Assembly (NCBI GenBank): GCA_949126835.1
Contig: OX421500.1
Span: 30,547,641-30,611,640 of the forward strand
Direction of reading: 5' to 3'
Source: Anisus vortex
Lineage: Eukaryota; Mollusca; Gastropoda; Planorbidae
Length of the DNA: 64,000 nt
Below, in pieces: positions 3,201 through 41,091 of this stretch. Each line of letters starts with the position of its first letter. The first letter of the stretch is position 1. The position numbers were made by a program, and so were the translations under genes. Below the pieces are notes generated by a model, which worked only from the letters and a program-made list of their open reading frames with translations, was not told the DNA's origin and ran no database searches.

Positions 3201-6200
3201 TAGTTGCAAGAGAGCAATCTGCACTGCATACTGGTTAACAGAAGAAGAAATATTTTTTTAAAAATATGAATTCTGGAAAATCTCCTCTAGAAATTTACTT
3301 CTGAAATTATACCTCCGGAAATTGACCTCTAGAAATTTAATTCCGAGATTTACTTTTAGGATTTTACCTCCAGAAATTTACCTCTACAAATTTACACCTA
3401 GAAGTTTACCTCCAGAAATTTACCTCTACAAATTTACACCTAGAAGTTTACCTCCAGAAATTTACCTCTACAAATTTACACCTAGAAGTTTATCGCCAGA
3501 AATTTACATCTAGAAATATACCTCTAGATTCTAAATTTTTATTATTAACTTTAGACTTTAATCGATTTTGCGCCCACAGCCTTTGCGCCCACGTTTAGCC
3601 GCCATCCAGTTGAGAAGTTCAAGCCGGCTGCTCTCGGAGGAAACGTCACAATCTCTTGCCGACCAGAGGCGGCCCCCAGGGCTACAGTCAAGTGGCTGAG
3701 GGGCAGCGTAGAGTTAACCAGCGTGAAGCCCAACGGTGATCTAGAGCTCTCTGCCCTGACCAAAGCTGACGAAGGGGAGTACACCTGCGTGGCGACAAAC
3801 CCACTGGGGGAGATGAAAGTGACCTGTTGGTTGGAAATACAAGGTAATTAAGACAGGTAAAAGCAACAACTGAACTATTCTTAACCCTTACAGTCCCGGG
3901 CGCGTATAGAGCGGAACTGAAGGCAGCATAGATAGAAGTAGGTCGGTACGGGAAGGGTTAAACTGTTTGGGTTTTGTTCGATGTTGTGGGTCTAATGGTT
4001 TCTATTTCATGTTAATTCTGTTTTTCTTCCGGAACTAGCGCTGATGGGATACCAGAAATTAATTTTGATAAAGTAGAAGCGGCTTGCAATTGTGATTGTA
4101 GCACATTTGTTTTGCACGTAATTTCCATATTTAGATATGGGGAATCTGAGGAAACTCTCATTACATTGATCTATTGGGGAACATAGCCGCTAAAACAGAC
4201 AACTTTAGAGTTTATACCGTGGACTATAAAGTGTGAATACTTTCAGCACTCATTACAACATTAGTTCTCATCTGGTTCTATTCTGCTTAATCGGCAATAC
4301 GCCCAAGTATGTCAAATATACTCCAAATAAAATTTAATTTATCAAGACCAATGGACTCCAAATATTGTGCCAGGCACCCTAGGGAGCAGCGGGGTCTTTA
4401 CAATGGGGTTCTGGGATTCTGCAACAACTACATTTTTGGATTCAACGCGGTATGATTTAAGAGTTTGGGATTTGCACCATGGAAAAACTTCTCTTCCGAT
4501 AGAGCGCCGCACATGGAAAGAGTTTGTAAACCACTTTCCTTATCCCTTATGCGAGAACAAATGAATATAAGTACTCTTTCTTCCCGAGTGGCATTCGGGC
4601 ATGGAATGGGTTGACTGAACAAACCAGGAAAACCAGTAACTGAACATTATTTAAAGCATTAATAAAAATGCAAAACTAGACTCGGACCACGGATAAGCGT
4701 AGGACGCAATAATCTTCTTTATAGAAGGAGAGTCTGTAGTGTATAAGATAAAACAACTCGTTTACAAAAACAATAAATACAACAGCAATAATAATTGGAT
4801 GTTCTTTTGGTTTAATTCGCATTTGTTTATTGCGATAGGTGAAGTTGTGTTTACAGAGAGGCCGGTGGACGTGGAGATAGAACAGAACAGCACGACTTAC
4901 CTCCCTTGTAAAGTCTCCTACGACCAGAGCAAAGTGGACGTGACGTACGAGTGGCGGTTCTTTTCTCACGCCATAGACTTCACAAGTAGTAGTGACGAGA
5001 GGGCGCACTATGCAATGGTTTGTCTGCACGTGTTGTGTGTTGCACGTGTTGTGTGTTGCACGTGTTGTGTGTTGCACGTGTTGTGTGTTGCACGTGTTGT
5101 GTGTTGCACGTGTTGTGTGTTGCACGTGTTGTGTGTTGCACGTGTTGTGTGTTGCACGTGTTGTGTGTTGCACGTGTTGTGTGTTGCACGTGTTGTGTGT
5201 TGTACGTGTTGTGTGTTGCACGTGTTGTGTGTTGCACGTGTTGTGTGTTGCACGTGTTGTGTGTTGCACGTGTTGTGTGATGCACGTGTTGTGTGCTGCA
5301 CGTGTTGTGTGCTGCACGTGTTGTGTGTTGCACGTGTTGTGTGTTGCACGTGTTGTGTGCTGCACGTGTTGTGTGATGCACGTGTTGTGTGTTGCACGTG
5401 TTGTGTGTTGCACGTGTTGTGTGTTGCACGTGTTGTGTGTTGCACGTGTTGTGTGTTGCACGTGTTGTGTGTTGCACGTGTTGTGTGTTGCACGTGTTGT
5501 GTGTTGCACGTGTTGTGTGTTGCACGTGTTGTGTGTTGCACGTGTTGTGTGTTGCACGTGTTGTATGCTGCACGTGTTGTGTGTTGCACGTGTTGTGTGT
5601 TGCACGTGTTGTGTGCTGCACGTGTTGTGTGCTGCACGTGTTGTGTGCTGCACGTGTTGAGTGTTGCACGTGTTGTGTGCTGCACGTGTTGTGTGCTGCA
5701 CGTGTTGTGTGCTGCACGTGTTGTGTGTTGCACGTGTTGTGTGCTGCACGTGTTGTGTGTTGCACGTGTTGTGTGTTGCACGTGTTGTGTGTTGCACTTT
5801 TTGTGTGTTGCACGTGTTGTGTGTTGCACGTGTTGTGTGTTGCACGTGTTGTGTGTTGCACGTGTTGTGTGTTGCACGTGTTGTGTGTTGCACGTGTTGT
5901 GTGTTGCACGTGTTGTGTGTTGCACGTGTTGTGTGATGCACGTGTTGTGTGTTGCACGTGTTGTGTGCTGCACGTGTTGTGTGTTGCACGTGTTGTGTGT
6001 TGCACGTGTTGTGTGCTGCACGTGTTGTGTGTTGCACGTGTTGTGTGTTGCACGTGTTGTGTGCTGCACGTGTTGTGTGTTGCACGTGTTGTGTGTTGCA
6101 CGTGTTGTGTGCTGCACGTGTTGTGTGTTGCACGTGTTGTGTGTTGCACGTGTTGTGTGCTGCACGTGTTGTGTGTTGCACGTGTTGTGTGCTGCACGTG

Positions 6201-9200
6201 TTGTGTGCTGCACGTGTTGTGTGTTGCACGTGTTGTGTGTTGCACGTGTTGTGTGCTGCACGTGTTGTGTGTTGCACGTGTTGTGTGCTGCACGTGTTGT
6301 GTGCTGCACGTGTTGTGTGCTGCACGTGTTGTGTATTGCACGTGTTGTGTGCTGCACGTGTTGTGTGCTGCACGTGTTGTGTGTTGCACGTGTTGTGTGT
6401 TGCACGTGTTGTGTGTTGCACGTGTTGTGTGCTGCACGTGTTGTGTGTTGCACGTGTTGTGTGTTGCACGTGTTGTGTGTTGCACGTGTTGTGTGTTGCA
6501 CGTGTTGTGTGTTGCACGTGTTGTGTGTTGCACGTGTTGTGTGTTGCACGTGTTGTGTGTTGCACGTGTTGTGTGTTGCACGTGTTGTGTGCTGCACGTG
6601 TTGTGTGCTGCACGTGTTGTGTGTTGCACGTGTTGTGTGTTGCACGTGTTGTGTGTTGCACGTGTTGTGTGCTGCACGTGTTGTGTGCTGCACGTGTTGT
6701 GTGTTGCACGTGTTGTGTGCTGCACGTGTTGTGTGTTGCACGTGTTGTGTGTTGCACGTGTTGTGTGTTGCACGTGTTGTGTGTTGCACGTGTTGTGTGT
6801 TGCACGTGTTGTGTGTTGCACGTGTTGTGTGTTGCACGTGTTGTGTGTTGCACGTGTTGTGTGTTGCACGTGTTTTGTGTTGCACGTGTTGTGTGTTGCA
6901 CGTGTTGTGTGTTGCACGTGTTGTGTGTTGCACGTGTTGTGTGTTGCACGTGTTGTGTGTTGCACGTGTTGTGTGTTGCACGTGTTGTGTGTTACACGTG
7001 TTGTGTGTTGCACGTGTTGTGTGTTGCACGTGTTGTGTGCTGCACGTGTTGTGTGCTGCACGTGTTGTGTGCTGCACGTGTTGTGTGTTGCACGTGTTGT
7101 TTTTTTTTGCACGTGTTGTGTGTTGCACGTGTTGTGTGTTGCACGTGTTGTGTGTTGCACGTGTTGTGTGTTGCACGTGTTGTGTGTTGCATGTGTTGTG
7201 TGCTGCACGTGTTGTGTGCTGCACGTGTTGTGTGCTGCACGTGTTGTGTGCTGCACGTGTTGTGTGCTGCACGCGTTGTGTGTTGCACGTGTTGTGTGTT
7301 GCACGTGTTGTGTGTTGCACGTGTTGTGTGCTGCACGTGTTGTGTGATGCACGTGTTGTGTGCTGCACGTGTTGTGTGTTGCACGTGTTGTAATATCTTG
7401 TCAGCATTAATTCATAGGAACCTTAGTTGTTGTTGTTTGGTGTTTTTTTGTTGCTTTTTTTTGGGGCGGGGGGGGGGAAAAGGGGGGAGGAGGAGAGATA
7501 CACATTTTTTGCCAAAGAATATAATAACACTATATCTTATAAGGTCCTTATTTTGCTGAATTTGTAAATATATGTTCGATTTGGTCCAATATTTGTAAGA
7601 AATGTTAATATAGTTAATAATTAATTCTTATTTTCAACAATTTCGATTTATTTCTTTATGATTGTAAAACATTAGCTGTAAAAAAATGTCGATTTAATAA
7701 CTGCAAAAAAAAGTGTAAATATTGTTACCTTATTTTTTCTAAAATGTAAAGACCGGTCCAACATTTTAATAATTTTCATATGATTGTACGATATCAGTGC
7801 GTAACAATTGTGGCTACTTATATGTCTGTCCAATATATGACTTTAAATGTATCCTAATAGTCTAAAATGTTGACAAAATTTTAACATGGGTCCAATCTCT
7901 CTTATTCTGTATCACCCCCGCCATGCCACCTTATCCTGGGCCAGCCAACTGATTTCATGCCATGTTTTATTAATGGCCTTCGCTTCCTAATCAATGGTTC
8001 TTCTCCAGGTTCCAATTGGTTTTTCCATCTTTTTTTTTTCTGATGGTGTCCATTTCAAGGTAATGCTTGGAAGTCTCTTTCTATCCTCGCCCAACGGGGT
8101 CTCTACAGTATAATATGGAATAAGAAAAAAGCGAAGAATGTGGTCCAACCATCTCCATCTTCTTTTCTTTATTTCTTCTTGGTCCAATGTATAACTATAA
8201 TTATCTCAGAATAGTCCAAAATTTATTCCAAAACTATTAGATCTTTGACTCCTACATCTATACAAGTATGTTTATCCATACATTTCAAATATTCTCAGCC
8301 AGAAATCTCTGCAGGCTCGGGAAAGCTGTACATCATAGCATCACAGTTTCGACACGCGGGTCGCTACACGTGTGTTGTCAAGTCTGTGTATGGCGCCTTA
8401 TCACACACTGCCTACGTCACAGTCAGAGGTAATTCTAAGTCAGGGGCATCCCCACACACACTGGTATTAGATCCTTGACCCGTGCCCTCTAAATATTGTA
8501 TATAGGGCCACCAGGTTAAAGTAATGTGTATATAATAACAAGTAAGTAAAGTGTTCCATGTCGGTCCATGAGATATTGAAGTTGCGTTTACTCATTTCCG
8601 TTCCCACTACAAAGCATATGGATTATGTGGCCAGTACAACGCCAGGATGCCTTTACATTTTTCCCCAACTAAAATCAGTCACCCATTACAGATAGCTAAA
8701 CTCAGGAACACATTCAGGACCAGAAGAATAAAAACCCAGGACGGTTTAACCTTAGATTCGAACCCAAGAACATAGGAATAGAAATCCGAGCGCGCTGTTG
8801 CTAAATCACTATGACTCATACTAACTCAACCGTAGCTTTATCTTTCATACCACTAATCCTGCTGAAATGTATTGGACTATGAAAGGATGGTGACTATTGC
8901 TTGGCAGTTAACCGTTTCAAGCAGCTTAAAGTTGTAGAGTATTCTTCATCGGATCAATCATAGTGTTTAGGGCAAGTCAACCAGCGTTTACAAGTCTCCG
9001 AGGCCACGGCATACTGTGGGAATTGTGTGCCCAAACTACTTCATGTCTCGAACTATACGTCTTTGCAGTGGCGTAGCTAGGGCCATCTGCGCCCGGGGAC
9101 ATGACACAAAGTCTGCGGCCCTTCTCGGACAGACAACGAATAAAAGACAAAAATGTATACATGAAAAATAATAAACTGCTACTTGAATAGGTGGGTCTTC

Positions 9201-12200: not shown

Positions 12201-15200
12201 TAAAAGGTAAAAAAATATATTAATGTTCTTTTTATAAAAAAAATGATAATCAGAAAAAAAGACAAATTTATTAAATGGATTTATTGTATTAACAATACAA
12301 AAACAATAGACATTTAACAACTAAAAGGGATCGAATTCCATTTTCCATTATTTAACTAATTTAGTTCATACATTGCTACACATGACTCATGTTTTCCTAT
12401 CACTGCCAGATATCTCCTGTCACACATTGCAACACATGACTCATGTTTTCCTATCACTGCCAGATATCTCCTGTCACACATTGCAACACATGACACATGT
12501 TTTCCTATCTCTGCCAGATATCTCCTGTCACACATTGCAACACATGACTCATGTTTTCCTATCTCTGCCAGATATCTCCTGTCATACATTGCAACACATG
12601 ACTCATGTTTCCCTATCTCTGCCAGATATCTCCTGTCACACATTGCAACACATGACTCATGTTTCCCTATCTCTGCCAGATATCTCCTGTCATACATTGC
12701 TACACATGACTCATGTTTCCCTATCTCTGCCAGATATCTCATGTCATACATTGCAACACATGACTCATGTTTTCCTATCTCTGCCAGATATCTCCTGTCA
12801 TACATTGCAACACATGACTCATGTTTCCCTATCTCTGCCAGATATCTCATGTCATACATTGCAACACATGACTCATGTTTCCCTATCTCTGCCAGATATC
12901 TCCTGTCATACATTGCAACACATGACTCATGTTTCCCTATCTCTGCCAGATATCTCATGTCATACATTGCAACACATGACTCATGTTTCCCTATCTCTGC
13001 CAGATATCTCATGTCATACATTGCAACACATGACTCATGTTTTCCTATCTCTGCCAGATATCTCCTGTCATACATTGCAACACATGACTCATGTTTCCCT
13101 ATCTCTGCCAGATATCTCCTGTCATACATTGCAACACATGACTCATGTTTTCCTATCTCTGCCAGATATCTCATGTCATACATTGCAACACATGACTCAT
13201 GTTTTCCTATCTCTGCCAGATATCTCCTGTCATACATTGCAACACATGACTCATGTTTCCCTATCTCTGCCAGATATCTCATGTCATACATTGCAACACA
13301 TGACACATGTTTTCCTATTTCTGACAGATATCCCTGTAGCATCCGTTGTATCAAACATACATACCACCTGGAGAAAGTTTAACGTCGTTGGCGGACTCTC
13401 TCCAGGTACGGCTTACCAGTTCCGGGTAATGGCCGGAAGTGATCAGACCGGATATGGTGCACCAAGTTCTGGAACCACCAGTGAGTACATGAACCGTTTC
13501 CTTGGCCATCGCGTGCAAGGGGATACTGTGGCCAAAAAACAATCAGAACTGATTTCCGATTTTAAAGATGCCATGCACCATTCAGAGGTGGGCTGGTGCC
13601 ATTGCAATCCCTGAGGGAAGAATAGTTTAACGTTTTTCTTTAAAGTAAGTAAGTCAGGTATCCCGTCGAAACAAATGGATCCATTGTGCCAATGAAGCAG
13701 CGTTGACTAGTCTCCGTGGCCACGGTATATATGGGGAATGTGTGTGGCCAGCACAATGCCCATCCGACTTTTTTACTTTACCCCATCTAAAGTCAGATTC
13801 CCATTAGGGCTAAGTAGACCCAAGGGCACCCTTCAGGCATTTAATCCCCAGGCTCTTGGTTTGTTCTCGAACGCTCTACCAATAAACTCCTGTGTCATTG
13901 GATCATTGTTACATTTGTGTTTAACACTCATTGCTTGTATACACAGATACATATGTTAACCACTGCCTGTTTCTATTTGATTATTGTTTTTTGTATACTT
14001 TTCTCTCCATCACAGAATGGTACAACATGAGAACCGCTGCTCCAATCTTCGCTCCGCCTAATGTAGGAGGCGGGGGTGGCAGTGTGGGCCTGTTGAGAAT
14101 CACCTGGGATGTGAGTGGCACAATTTAAAAAACGTACAAAGAATACCTGTTCTATTTTGGGAATCTTGTGTGTGATCCTATCTATGACAATGTTTCTATT
14201 TATAGCACTTACCCAGAAGTCAATGGGGTGCACCGAATATCCGGTACGTTTTGTATTACCGACGTAAACAAGAGGATGACAGTAACCGGAAGTGGGAAAG
14301 GGTGAGTAAAAATGGTTACCTTCTTTTAAATACTTGCGACACGCATACACATTCAATAACAGTTAGTATGTCTGGTCTAGACTTAGTAATGATAGTATTC
14401 TCGACATGCCAATTTGATCCATAGGCCTATGGATCTGTAATGGCATGCTAAGATATTGTGTGGCCAGCACAATACCCAACCGCCTTTACTTCTCCCTAAC
14501 TAATGTCAGGTATACATCAGGACCGTGTAGACTCTGGAACACTCTGTTCAGACGCAGGAACAAACACTAGCCTCCACTACAATTTGAACCCTGTACCTTC
14601 GGTATGCCATCCGAAAGCGCAGCCACCGTATCTCATATCATTAGTAATGGACTACACATATACCCGTGGACTACACATATACCCGTGGACTACACATATA
14701 CCCGTGGACTACACATATACCCGTGGGGCTTTCCCATGTTTTAAACCATGACTTTTATAGTGAGTTTGCAACTAGTAAATATTGGTCAACGTTTTAACAG
14801 AATGAGATTTAGTGATCAGTCTTTACAATGTTTACTTCCAGTTTACATGATTTACATATATGTGACTTTGTTTAGTTTAAAGTTTAATTAAACTGTAACA
14901 CATGCACATGCATATAATTTCTGAATGAAATTTTGGAATATTACACGACCTAATAACCATATTACACTCGCCCTAACTGTTCCAGGGCTACCCTAAGAGC
15001 CCATTACCCCAAAGCTTAAGTATATCTTATCTAATATTATCTTATATATTACAGACGCTCCTTCTATAAAGAAGATTATTGCGTCATACGCTCATATTTC
15101 AAAACGAAATGGCTACGATTAATGACTCGCGTGTTAGCAGTAGTCTATATATTATGTCAATGTTTTAACCGTTGTTTATTAATATTGAAATATCACGGCT

Positions 15201-20343: not shown

Positions 20344-20383
<40 letters not shown>

Positions 20384-23300
20384 TAGTATAGTGCCCATCT
20401 TTAAATGGGTTAGTTTGTCAACACGAAGTTGGCAAGACAAAAAAATAAAAACCGCGTCATGGAGTCATCTCATTTGATTTTACACTCCGACTATTCCCCT
20501 AAGCTGTCGTGACTGATGCCTTGCCGTTTGTGTTTCTTTTGTTTCCAACTTTATTCCTGATTGGTATGCTTGAATTTTAAGTGTTCATGCCAGTGGCAAG
20601 CCAACCCTGGGTACCTGTCTTGTAAATTCTAAAATTAAACATCTTCATTGAAAGTACTGTGAGACTTTGTTAGTGCTTTCAAAAGTAACACCTAAACCAC
20701 ACACACACCACCACACACTGGTAGCACGAGTGGGGTTGTTCGCAATTTGGTGTGTGCATTGACAAGCAGAGACAGGTACGCCAGGAAAGGAGAGAGCTGA
20801 TGTGCATTGCCTTCCCAAGAGAGAGAGATGTCCTAGCAACTGATGGAGGATCGTTATAATATACTTTCAAGGCTTTCGCAGTTGAGCGAAAGACTTGAAG
20901 AGATTGAAGCAAAGAAGCGGATAGATGTCTCGGAGAGAGAGCCTGGCAGTATGTATAAGCACCACCAGCGCAGCGGAAAATTTGCACCGCCTGGTTTAGT
21001 GTGGAGGGGGACTTTGTCAAAGGTGTTTCCATATAGAAGCAAATTCTACCCATATAATGAGCAGGACGTGCCTGTCTGCACCTCTTGCTGGGAACCAGGA
21101 CACATAAAAAGGCGTTGCACATTGAGTCATCCAAAACTAGCGCCCCCCGGCATGCGGTGTCGAGTGCTGGCAGGGTCTTCCAACGACTCTCCACCAAAGC
21201 GTAAGAAAAGAAATGTTATGGCTGCTAATGTGACAGGAACAGTCAAATGGTTAAATGTCAAACGCGGATATGGATTTATCAATCGTGAGGACACAAAGGA
21301 AGATGTGTTTGTGCACTATACAGCCATTATAAGAAACAACCCAAGAAAATACCTTAGGAGTGTTGGTGATGGTGAAAAAGTTGAGTTCGATGTTGTTGTA
21401 GGCGAGAATGGTAATCAGGCTGCGAATGTAACGGGTCCAGATGGTTCCAATGTAAAAGGCAGTAAATATGCCCCTGATCGTCGCAGATTAAGTCATAGAG
21501 GGTATCCACAGAATGGTACAGGGGACAGACCAAGAAGGACATTCCAAGAGGATAAGGCTATGGTAACAGACTATACATCCCAGCAAAGAAATAAAAGCCA
21601 GGTGCTTCCCAACAACAGACATTCATCATGTGTACCACATTCTGGTGCCGGCAATGGGAGGACACATTTTTCCGAACGTCGACCAACAGATATCGATAAG
21701 CCTCAAGCCCACGACACCCTAAGGCCTGAACCAGTGACTGCTACCCTGGCGAGCAACGAGCCTCCTGCCCACATTCAACAACAAAATGAGTCTCAATATT
21801 CGTCACGGCTGCAGGCATGGCCTCCGAGTACTTCCACAAAACTTCAAGGGATAACCAGTATGAATGTAACCACACAAGAGACTAGGTGTCAGCCAACACC
21901 CACAGTGCCTTTGTTGTTCTTGCTGTTGGCTGCTTTCCCAGTGGCACATGCCATTCTTGGGCTCATGAGTGAGCAGTTTAGAATGTTTTAAACTGTAGCG
22001 CCCCGGGACGGGTCGCATCAGGCTGGGGAGTCTGTAGTATAGTGCCCATCTTTAAATGGGTTAGTTTGTCAACACGAAGTTGGCAAGACAATTAAAATAA
22101 AAACCGCGTATTATGGAGTCATCTCATTTGATTTTACACTCCGACTATTCCCCTAAGCTGTCGTGACTGATGCCTTGCCGTTTGTGTTTCTTTTGTTTCC
22201 AACTTTATTCCTGATTGGTATGCTTGAATTTTAAGTGTTCATGCCAGTGGCAAGCCAACCCTGGGTACCTGTCTTGTAGATTCTAAAATAAAACATCTTC
22301 ATTGAAAGTACTGTGAGACTTTGTTAGTGCTTTCAAAAGTAACACCTAAACCACACACACACCACCACCACAATAATAATAATAATGGTCATTTCTTATA
22401 GAAAGACAGTAAGACAGCAGTTCAAAGCACTTTATGGCGATAAAAGTGAACTGCAAAAAATAACTTACTTTGTTGACATTTGTGAAATCTTTAATGAGTA
22501 AAATTTATCACTGCAAGGAGCAGTTAATTTTTGTAACAAACCTTAATTTGTCTGAAAAGATCGGATGATTCGAAAAAAAAAACTTTAGCTTTGGCATCAA
22601 AATTGGATGTAAAAAAAATGTGGGTGCTGCTTAACATGACATTAATCCAGTTAAAAGGATTACGATAATGATTTTTGTGAAAGAACACTTGCACATGCTT
22701 GTAGACGAAATTTCATCGTACCATTTCTAATTTATCTGACACTTCATTTGCACTCGAAAGAAGGTCATGCACAGTCAAATTTGAAGATGTTCCTGAGACA
22801 ACACAATAAAAGTTCATTTAATGTATTAGCTACTAATTTCTCTACAATGTCAATTACAAAATTCAGCATCAAGTGTTTGCAGTCATATACTTTCCTCTTC
22901 CATCTCCAACAACATATCTTTGTGAAACAGTGCTTTCCAGTTTGTTGATGATTAAATCTAATTAAAGAACTAGACTTGTTGTGAAAGATGATCTTCATTG
23001 TGTAATCCAATGAGAAAAACGCAGTCACAATCTAACACTGACGTTGTGTTGTAATTAGGGATGTTAAGACCGGTTTGTTTTCAAAACCGGTTTTCGGTTC
23101 TATAAAACCGGTTTAAAACCGAATTTCGATTCCCCAACCCTCATCCCCCCCCACCCGCAATGTCACAAGGCACAGGCCGACATCTAATCGATGAGCCGAC
23201 ATTTGGTTTGATGTTGTTTTTATCGCAAGCCATAGTTGGTATTTGGAGAAAAAAAAAAGAAACACAATATCTAAGACTAAATAGTATTAGCAAGGCATTT

Positions 23301-38231: not shown

Positions 38232-41091
38232 GTAAGTAAAAATACATTATTTTTTTTAAGTCAATCAAATACTCTAAGTAGTATAAATAATTTCTCTATT
38301 TATTTTGAAAGACTGTTCAACAATCGACCTAATCAATATCATAATAGATATGGATCAATAATTACTACCTAACATTAGTTATACCCATATTAGAATATTC
38401 GTCTTATGTATAGGACTCCTCAATTTAAAGAAAACTTTAAAAAATTTAACAAATTCAGAAAAGAGATGATAGGTTCATTAGTAGCGAATATTGAAAACTG
38501 ACAAGATTAATACAAACAGTTGAATCACTAAACCTAGAAACAAGCTCTACTTCAGCGGAAGAGATGACAGGCATGAACATGGTGTTGGATTTCTGGTCCA
38601 CAAAGACACCATGTCGGGACAGTCAGCATCGGTGGGGAGACAAGTCACCAATCTTCGCTTTGCAGATGACATAGATGGCTTAGCTGGCAGTGAAGATGAA
38701 CTGAGGGAGTTAACAGCCAAACTGGAGATAACATCATTAGCGTATGGCATAGAAATAAACGCTGAAAAGACCAAAGTTATGGCAAACATGGAGTTTGAAT
38801 CCGAAATACAAGTGGGCGGTCAGAGGCTCGAGAAAGTCTCCTCCTTCAAATATCTGGGATCCATAATATCTGATGTAGGATCCAAGCGGGAAATTCTTGC
38901 AAGAATAGCCCAAACAACTGATGCACTTTGCAAGCTAAAAAACATCTGGCGAAGCAAGACAATCTCGCTTTACTCAAAGATTCGACTGATGCGCTCCCTG
39001 GCGATGGCAGTTTTTTTGAACGGCTGTGAAACATGGACAGATCTCCAGAAAAGAATCAGAGCCATGAAAATGAGATGCCTACTTAAAATTTTAAACATCT
39101 CCTACAAAGATCGAGTTACAAATGAGGCTGTCCGCGAGCGAATCACCTACGTCATCGGCCCTCATGAGGATCTACTCAGTGCCATTAAATCCAGAAAACT
39201 CCGATGGTATGGGCATGTGGCAAGATCCGAAGGCCTGGCGAAAACCATCCTGTAGGGCACAGTGCGAGGTGGAAGAAAGAGAGGCAGGCAGAAGAGACGA
39301 TGGGATGATGACATCAATGAGTGGATCGGCTTGTCTCTTGCAGACTCCCAGAGGGCGGCGAAGGACCGAGACAAATGGCGCAAAATTATGCAACTGTCAA
39401 AAAATGGTGCCCCAACGACCCTCGCTCGGGTTATGGGATAGAAGAAGAAGAAGAAGAAGAAACACTAGAGGACAGAAGGGCGAAGAGTAAAATAGTAATA
39501 ATACATAAATCATTAAATTCTAACATAGAACTACGGCTATGTAGTAATCTATGTCGATGCTCAGAAAGGCAGAGATTGCAAACACATGAAAACCAACAAC
39601 TTAACATTAATTAAAACCTTCATAAAAAAATTGTGGGTTAGACCATAGACAATAATATACATGGACCGCTTGCTTTAGTATTTCTGCTATATGATGACTT
39701 GAAACACTGATGTTCGGAATTCCCGATTCTAAATAACGTAATTGCTATACAGGAAATAAAGTTATTGATATACAAGTTCCGTTTTATTTAATCGCTATGA
39801 TTTTCTCAATGAAAAATTAAAATCGAAAGTTGTACAGAGCGGAAACATTTATAGATCAGTGTTGTGTGCGCACGGAAAAAGATCATAAGCTCTAAAAATA
39901 GAGCAGGCGGTCCATCTTATTATAATCAATGATAATAGGATTAATAGGCCTACAAGTATTCATTTGAAGTCGAAAAAATGCGATTTAATAAAACGGAACT
40001 TGTATAACAATTACTTCATTTAGAATCGGGAATTGCAAAAAAAAAAAAGAAGATAATAGCATAAAAAACTAAAGCAAGCGGTCCATGTATATTATAGTCT
40101 ATGGTTAGACCGCAACCACGGTTAAACGTAGGACGCATTACTCAACTGTATAGTATAAAAGATCCTTGTATTTTGAAAAAAACCAACTTTGCGTCACATT
40201 GAGCATAAAATTAGCTTATATAAATATGTGTGTGTGTGTCTCCAATGACTTCTACCTTACCTATGCTCGTCCGTATGAGTATTCCATTATGAATATATTC
40301 TATCTATGTTGTTTGTATATATTACATAATCCCACACACACGCAGAATGCCCTAACTCATGGTTTGAGACCAGTGGCTATTGTTATGATTTTGTGTTTCG
40401 GCCCGCGAGAACTTACCAGGAAGCCACAATCGCCTGTCAGATGACCTCGTCCACTCTGGTCAGCGTCAAGTCAGCCGGAGAGCACGGCTTCGTGCAGAAC
40501 TGGTTAAACAACCACGACCCAGAAAGGTTAGTGAGAAATTATTATAACCGATGCAGAGCATCGTACTGGCCACACTAGTCTCCACCGAACTCAACAGATT
40601 ATTATTTCTTGTGTGTGCCTGATAATGTAGAATTTGAACAATTTAGACATCGGTCATTGTCATTAGATTCTCTTGATGTTTTTGTGGATGGAAGACAAGT
40701 TTTAGTTAGCCTCTAATGTTTAAGTAATAGTTCAGTACCTTTTTTTGGAATTTTCTTCTATATTCTATGCAATGATATAACTTTTGTTTTCAGTTCATAC
40801 CAGCAAGAAATATTTAAAAGCTCCATACGTTTTCATAAACAACTAGTGAAGCCAAGAGTGCAATAAAAATATAAAAAGGCATATTATCATAGTGAAAATA
40901 ATAATACATTTGTTTTAAATTTCGTTTCCAACTAATATATTGTAAACTCAGAGCGCCTTTGTTTACTTATTTTTAAGTAATGATGCAACCTGTTTGCCTG
41001 AGCTGATTGGGGGAGTGAATTCAAGACTTTCAAACCAAATGTGGAGATGGCTCTCATGCCAGCGGTCTTCAAAAAGAAATTCAGCATTTCT

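Follow-up and report, generated by a model that had tools for sequence, protein, structure and literature searches.

Why should a cold-shock domain of the Y-box type sit behind a CCHC knuckle in the only open reading frame (ORF) between two long terminal repeats (LTRs) of a snail chromosome? An earlier note on this DNA proposed that a retroelement had captured a host Y-box mRNA, which now served as an RNA-binding, Gag-like protein of a non-autonomous element, with a host gene that later acquired LTR flanks as the alternative. We evaluated both proposals in the 64-kb stretch of DNA in which the locus lies (the window, C9:30547641-30611640) and across the genome (863 Mb in 159 contigs), which revealed that window positions 20382-22372 are one copy of a multicopy non-autonomous LTR retroelement with the following parts.

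20378-20381, no strand: 5' copy of the target duplication ATAA (from the sequence; ambiguous within an (AAT)n run)
20382-20715, + strand: 5' LTR in its intron-less ("spliced") form, with a splice-like junction at 20580/20581
20719-20735, + strand: primer-binding-site-like (PBS-like) motif TGGTAGCACGAGTGGGG, identical in a larger partner element
20843-21991, + strand: single ORF of 382 codons, a fusion of Gag nucleocapsid (NC) and Y-box
20858-21118, + strand: Gag C-terminus (coiled coil plus CCHC nucleocapsid), residues 6-92, homologous to that of the partner (tblastn)
21077-21118, + strand: CCHC knuckle, residues 79-92 (from the sequence; sub-threshold Pfam match)
21127-21185, + strand: relic of the partner's -1 frameshift signal, in which one extra A gives the in-frame fusion (50/59 columns identical to partner piece L052)
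21203-21675, + strand: host Y-box coding sequence from the end of exon 1 to the end of exon 5, without introns
21233-21436, + strand: cold-shock domain, PF00313 (Pfam search)
21676-21892, + strand: coding segment without a match to the host Y-box locus (no better than shuffles)
21893-22032, + strand: 3' end common to the partner, comprising a hydrophobic ORF C-terminus and the purine-rich tract (72% DNA match)
22021-22030, + strand: purine-rich, polypurine-tract-like (PPT-like) sequence, similar in other copies
22033-22372, + strand: 3' LTR, spliced form, junction at 22234/22235
22373-22376, no strand: 3' copy of the target duplication ATAA (from the sequence)

The ~336-bp LTRs, the PBS candidate, the purine-rich tract and the one intact 382-codon ORF all lie where the earlier note had placed them. 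The window LTRs differ by 4 mismatches and 2 gaps over 333 columns, start with TG and end with CA, and have ATAA on either flank, a duplication that, within an (AAT)n run, is not independently definable. A TGG-initial motif, the candidate PBS, recurs after the 5' LTR across copies, and the layout as a whole is not a product of chance because the same layout with paired LTRs recurs at many loci. Rfam and tRNA scans of the 64-kb window found nothing. As for the surroundings, immunoglobulin- and fibronectin III-like exon pieces (sub-threshold in Pfam) were seen at 1890-2100 and 13300-13480, and the element may lie inside an intron of a cell-adhesion-type gene. Positions 38611-39255 hold a reverse-transcriptase fragment (RVT_1, E 3.4e-7) that is probably a LINE remnant, and ~148 copies of a 16-bp tandem repeat occupy 5025-7391; the long open frames that they create on either strand are probably not genes.

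Evaluating the ORF itself, we found that its cold-shock domain (CSD; PF00313, E 7.7e-25, residues 131-198) aligns far better to Y-box proteins (zebrafish YB-1, E 3.3e-39) than to Lin28 (best E 5.2e-8), in agreement with its first description as a Y-box-type domain. The knuckle at residues 79-92 falls below the Pfam cut-off (14.3 bits vs 20.8) yet matches the Gag knuckle of the related element described below. Lin28 proteins carry their CSD first and then two CCHC knuckles; the snail ORF likewise combines CSD and CCHC in one protein, but has a single knuckle that precedes a CSD of Y-box type, and domain type and order together rule out a Lin28 relationship. A Pfam search found no capsid in the ORF, and pol was absent from the element according to the ORF list and a Pfam search. 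For the middle segment of the ORF we considered a retained Y-box intron or exon 6 and rejected both, as no match beat shuffles. Among 51 candidates, no public protein with the same N-terminus was found at E ≤ 1, and none of the 120 whole-ORF protein matches listed of 1713 covers >46% of the query. Viral contigs, in a set that may omit records near the source genome, gave no match to the element.

A protein search of the genome with a snail Y-box query placed Y-box sequence at 24 loci besides the host gene, the window included; all 37 candidates were scored, and the 36 matches divided into 7 to one intron-bearing host gene and 29 to the 24 loci, of which two, on C95 and C97, may be a single locus. 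We examined 27 copies (the window and 26 further element-matching loci) together with the host gene and 11 LTR-only loci. LTR pairs flank 20 of the 27 copies, with five pairs identical over 651-690 nt and the other 15 diverging by K2P 0.003-0.085. Four-bp target duplications with TG...CA ends were found by script at 12 of the 20 pairs; five of these 12 (window, L014, L015, L025 and L028) are weak, lying in AT-type repeats, and those outside such repeats include CAAA, TTGT, CTAT, CATG and CTCT. For the remaining eight pairs, young L021 included, the script gave no duplication. The earlier note had held that its reading would fall if the LTR-like repeats had no paired copies elsewhere, or if the ORF proved single-copy in related species; paired LTRs were found at other loci, and the ORF is multicopy in this genome, the one examined here.

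These counts bear directly on two alternatives. A host Y-box retrogene later flanked by unrelated LTR-like duplicates has as its sole favourable point that the ORF is host-like, and the 24 loci, the LTR pairs at 20 of 27 copies and the partner-like sequence on either side of the host segment within one ORF leave it with practically no probability; a host gene or retrogene with later LTR flanks, the alternative first raised, is ruled out by the 24 loci and their paired LTRs. Spread of a single capture mainly by segmental duplication, not retrotransposition, could account for the near-identical copies on C95 and C97 (3 changes in 254 codons, with rearranged LTR pieces), which are maybe one locus seen twice or a duplication, but 4-bp duplications with different flanks at 12 of 20 LTR pairs and the heritable loss of an intron-like segment in LTRs make it very improbable for the family.

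Many copies are decayed, and L016 has lost much of its ORF, its LTRs still being 99% identical. The five identical-LTR copies retain long Y-box frames (382, 378, 275, 275 and 269 codons), with the last ~20 ORF residues frame-shifted in one of them, L014, and such copies suggest recent activity. A tree of 16 internal regions (L016, L030, L034 and L037 were left out as broken or interrupted) grouped the window copy with L013, L014, L015 and L017, plus L028 by midpoint rooting, and placed L018-L027 in a second group, hereafter clade 2. In the clade-2 copies, similarity to the ORF begins only at about residue 19-28, and most of the coiled coil is therefore gone there. Nested elements also occur in Y-box copies: L030 contains a 905-codon ORF, and L033 a 1221-codon ORF between 1040-nt direct repeats.

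We next compared the ORF with the host Y-box gene, which lies on C16, has at least 7 coding exons and encodes a protein nearest, among 11 proteins, to that of Biomphalaria pfeifferi (177/187 residues) and then Physella acuta (171/186), which places the source among gastropods close to these freshwater snails. ORF codons ~120-278 correspond to host exons 1-5 joined without introns, beginning inside exon 1, with 83-86% DNA identity in the CSD blocks; no homology to host exons 6-7 was found in the ORF. Homology to the host gene runs out one base short of the exon 5 end (window 21675), and a splice from the exon 5 donor into element RNA is possible. Across 16 copies, the element CSD is separated from that of the host by dS 0.73-0.99 and dN 0.08-0.14, whereas CSD dS between clades is 0.32-0.37 (window and L013 vs L022 and L024), and the capture therefore predates the clade split. 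The NC, frameshift block and tail common to the copies argue for one single capture. Intronless exons, 24 loci, LTR pairs, 4-bp duplications and the larger partner together support what had been proposed from the window alone, namely that a retroelement captured a host Y-box mRNA and was amplified as a non-autonomous element.

Using the 676-nt LTR of L022 as query, we found, among the best 40 of 129 candidates, LTR pairs ~6.3 kb apart on C17 and C7 that are 87-88% alike, each of the two enclosing an internal region of ~5.6 kb. From the C17 copy we read two pieces: L051, which covers internal bases 1-1,553, and L052, an 81-base piece from the end of gag. The PBS motif of L051 is identical to that of the window copy, and partner nt 1-61 are common to most clade-2 copies at 78-88%; this leader was not detected in the window copy. 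The Gag of L051 has a PNMA-family capsid match above cut-off (E 9.5e-8), a cut-off missed by its public relatives P0121 (0.019) and P0122 (nothing); a structure model of this Gag was set aside at pLDDT 46.5. Its C-terminal coiled coil and CCHC match ORF residues 6-92 at 35% identity (tblastn, E 2.3e-15), and the NC matches the C17 and C7 partners at E 1e-11 and 3.5e-11, such that the N-terminus of the ORF corresponds to the C-terminus of the partner Gag. All 17 candidates for L051 DNA were scored, and the complete or almost complete stretch was present only on C17 and C7, with bases 1-1387 on C4 and a 261-base fragment on C6. The NC motif was also seen outside the Y-box loci at C9:18626893, C1:2067061, C1:4581537 and C5:15254172, which are possible other members of the partner family.

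The opposite end of the element likewise leads to the partner. The last 140 internal bases of the window copy match C17:9217527-9217664 and C7:35948214-35948351 at 72%, two 138-base stretches that each abut a partner 3' LTR; all 24 candidates were scored. After gag, both partner copies have an open -1 frame of 1350 codons (a stop-to-stop count, which gives 305 for Y-box copies) that spans 9213564-9217613 on C17, by arithmetic ~50 bases short of the 3' LTR. From its size and position we infer that this frame is pol; in an integrase-family search that saturated, neither partner stood among the best 150 of 6123 candidates. The search for an autonomous partner thus yielded a larger element with related LTRs and a common PBS motif, NC, frameshift site and 3' end, and with a presumptive pol.

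In L052, the partner gag closes with HVARRCNVHPN and a stop at C_CCA_AAC_UAG; a GC stem follows, and the -1 frame continues. The HPN ending recurs in P0121, a public relative that is 49% identical to this Gag. C_CCA_AAC has the X_XXY_YYZ form, in the 0 frame, in the partner and in clade-2 copies, and not in the window copy. A 56-nt block at the site is 54/56 identical in L019, L021 and L022, and an exact 32-mer occurs 5 times genome-wide, in the two partners and three Y-box copies. CCCAAAC is kept in 11 of 19 aligned copies (L018-L027 and L029), in an alignment that leaves out L016 and L030, the latter of which keeps the heptamer. The window copy and L013-L015 read CCAAAAC, the extra A putting NC and Y-box in one frame, and L017 and L028 differ again. 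In clade 2, three identical-LTR copies included, the knuckle and the Y-box lie in different frames with a potential -1 site between them; the CCHC frame is closed there by UAG (GAG replaces TAG in L024), and without frameshifting the Y-box would therefore be made alone from an internal ATG. The stem begins after a ~5-nt spacer and reaches -26 kcal/mol (z -1.29 and -0.48 vs shuffles), with z of -0.45 to -1.49 in 9 of 10 copies folded and +0.79 in L030; since this stability is unexceptional against shuffles, the stem is no more than suggestive as a stimulatory structure. C_CCA_AAG, a different heptamer from the C_CCA_AAC seen here, is described as highly shift-prone in E. coli (PMC5009743).

Within the pol-position frame, the Y-box sits after the first ~20 codons and before a tail matching the last ~30, and this tail match starts at a codon boundary in window and partner alike. 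Because the knuckle is homologous to the Gag NC of the partner, the capture entered the pol-position frame downstream of NC and not a Gag. RNA binding and a Gag function of the protein, as proposed in the earlier note, are putative. Judging from its reading frames, the window clade is one that turned a potential frameshift product into a plain NC-Y-box fusion.

An unexpected finding was that the short LTRs, those of the window copy among them, resemble the long LTR with an intron removed. Short (~260-360 nt) and long (~650-690 nt) LTRs are present in both clades. When the loci were scanned for breakpoints with four long LTRs as references, 14 of them showed a clean large gap, placeable as GT...AG in 12 and not in L027 or L033. 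The missing segments are GTATGG...TAACAG (369 nt) in L015, L016, L040-L043 and L050, GTAGGC...TAACAG (352 nt) in both window LTRs when set against the 690-nt LTR of L013, and GTATGT...ATGCAG (358-386 nt) in L019, L020, L026 and L030. Each gap has three or four equally good placements, and we therefore estimate that GT-AG would arise by chance at ~4/256 junctions. The short-LTR copies L017, L018, L025, L028 and L037 gave no clean gap in the breakpoint scan, and cruder global alignments gave gaps without GT-AG in these five and in L026. The simplest reading is that an LTR intron was spliced out of the RNA and that reverse transcription then carried the shortened form into both LTRs, and the spliced LTRs would in this way support passage of the window copy through RNA.

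To connect these structures to function, we evaluated substitutions between copies, as the earlier note had suggested. Comparison of L013 with L022 gave a dN/dS of 0.16 for the CSD (17.8 synonymous changes over 64.6 sites, 11.2 non-synonymous over 208.4; Fisher p 3.2e-6) and of 0.08 for the 52-codon NC, readable in 9 copies (17/36 vs 7/120; p 5.1e-8), which shows that the CCHC and cold-shock domains are under purifying selection between clades, with the caveat that copy pairs are non-independent. Inside clade 2, NC dN/dS ranges over 0.28-1.18 on 4-8 changes, and the CSD comparisons have few changes behind them. CSD dN/dS nears 1 in decayed copies such as L030, and the ORF tail is weakly constrained (~0.7). 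Synonymous divergence between L013 and L022 is ~0.75 in the NC, twice the ~0.34 of the CSD, a contrast that may reflect recombination between clades.

Two other roles for the Y-box can be weighed against these values. The fragment could be passive cargo, captured by accident and hitchhiking, with only LTR, PBS and PPT mattering for movement as in coding-free non-autonomous elements. The commonness of decayed ORFs, the tail dN/dS of ~0.7 and the loss of much of the ORF from L016 between LTRs still 99% identical would fit, but between-clade changes in CSD and NC are strongly biased to synonymous sites and all five identical-LTR copies keep a long Y-box frame, and we regard this as unlikely. Alternatively, the Y-box could be a mimic directed at the host, favouring the element by changing how germline mRNPs are masked, translated or silenced. 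The segment kept is a canonical Y-box CSD, and in clade 2 the Y-box can be separate from the nucleocapsid, as such a mimic would allow; set against this are the lack of detectable homology to host exons 6-7 in the ORF and the conservation of NC along with CSD between clades, which leave this role doubtful, if somewhat less so than passive carriage.

The reading that we hold with considerable confidence is that of a non-autonomous LTR element with a spliced host Y-box mRNA in the pol position of its partner, presumably mobilised in trans, whose NC-Y-box protein likely binds element RNA. A partner-like ancestor would have had most of its long pol-position frame replaced by the spliced Y-box mRNA, keeping its LTRs, PBS, Gag nucleocapsid, frameshift signal, 3' end and PPT. 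We presume an ancestral layout in which NC is translated as part of gag and slippage on C_CCA_AAC, ahead of UAG, would open the -1 frame of the Y-box, because this two-frame arrangement is common to the partner and kept by identical-LTR copies; one extra base in the window clade would then have produced the constitutive NC-Y-box fusion. Element RNA is presumably packaged, copied and integrated in trans by partner proteins (a putative capsid, reverse transcriptase and integrase), and NC-Y-box most likely binds that RNA, which could raise its stability, translation or packaging. The coiled coil of the window clade could permit co-assembly with the partner Gag; clade 2 lacks most of it, and such co-assembly is therefore not general. 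More tentatively, and as something we think may well not hold, the element could be a satellite retrotransposon with its own packaging factor, a stolen Y-box joined to a helper-type NC via the helper's frameshift signal and competing for helper particles, whose RNA also splices inside the LTR such that the spliced LTR is inherited and promoter and leader length evolve by splicing.

Placing the element among known systems, LARDs, TRIMs and TR-GAGs have LTRs, a PBS and a PPT and are mobilised in trans, LARDs and TRIMs being non-coding and TR-GAGs keeping the whole gag. The snail element differs from these in its host gene and in the lack of a detected capsid: its 382-codon ORF, with two domains under purifying selection, sets it apart from TRIMs and LARDs, which have no coding capacity, and the window ORF lacks the capsid of the complete gag that TR-GAGs carry. 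Its paired TG...CA LTRs and a target duplication within the 4-6 bp range agree with the Ty3/Gypsy type, although the window element itself has no pol and so does not have the Gag and Pol of a Ty3/Gypsy element. An intronless host coding sequence with element sequence on both its sides identifies it as gene-transducing. Acute transforming retroviruses combine gag-oncogene fusions with loss of pol and helper dependence, and are infectious carriers of growth-control genes; they share with the snail element a Gag-host fusion without pol, whereas the snail element is amplified in the germline and carries an mRNA-binding gene.

Among elements with captured genes, crocodilian endogenous retroviruses (ERVs) have taken up KIT-ligand and nectin3 mRNAs, and the report on them rates such capture of host mRNA as relatively uncommon among retroviral elements (PMC4299795). 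Like the snail element, these LTR retroelements of animals are described as carrying a captured host mRNA and as having intact ORFs under purifying selection, and in the nectin3 case the host gene replaces an element gene; they differ in carrying a cytokine and a cell-adhesion protein, where the snail has an RNA-binding gene behind a frameshift site in a small element without its own pol (PMC4299795). Maize Bs1 is likewise an LTR element with transduced host coding sequence, but from a plant and with segments of three host genes (membrane ATPase, xylan endohydrolase and glucanase), and the description consulted mentions neither an RNA-binding domain nor a frameshift arrangement (PMC13317346). 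PNMA3 and PNMA5 are Ty3/Gypsy-derived, and PNMA3 is reported to -1 frameshift into a non-Pol extension; both are immobile domesticated host genes, whereas the snail element is mobile and its extension is a host Y-box (PMC5009743). Among the open-licence PubMed Central papers listed, none was on a Y-box or cold-shock gene carried by an LTR element. Gene-transducing LTR elements are thus known, and what appears unusual here is the placement of a host RNA-binding gene after the frameshift signal of a helper, together with the apparent inheritance of LTR splicing.

Most junctions of this capture are still visible, with the host mRNA in the centre and helper-like sequence at both ends of one ORF. 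The family therewith offers a testable model for a non-autonomous element gaining a trans-acting RNA-binding function, for retroviral-style transduction in a germline element and for an LTR losing an intron through its own RNA. As the identical-LTR copies suggest recent activity, both expression and mobility should be testable in this snail.
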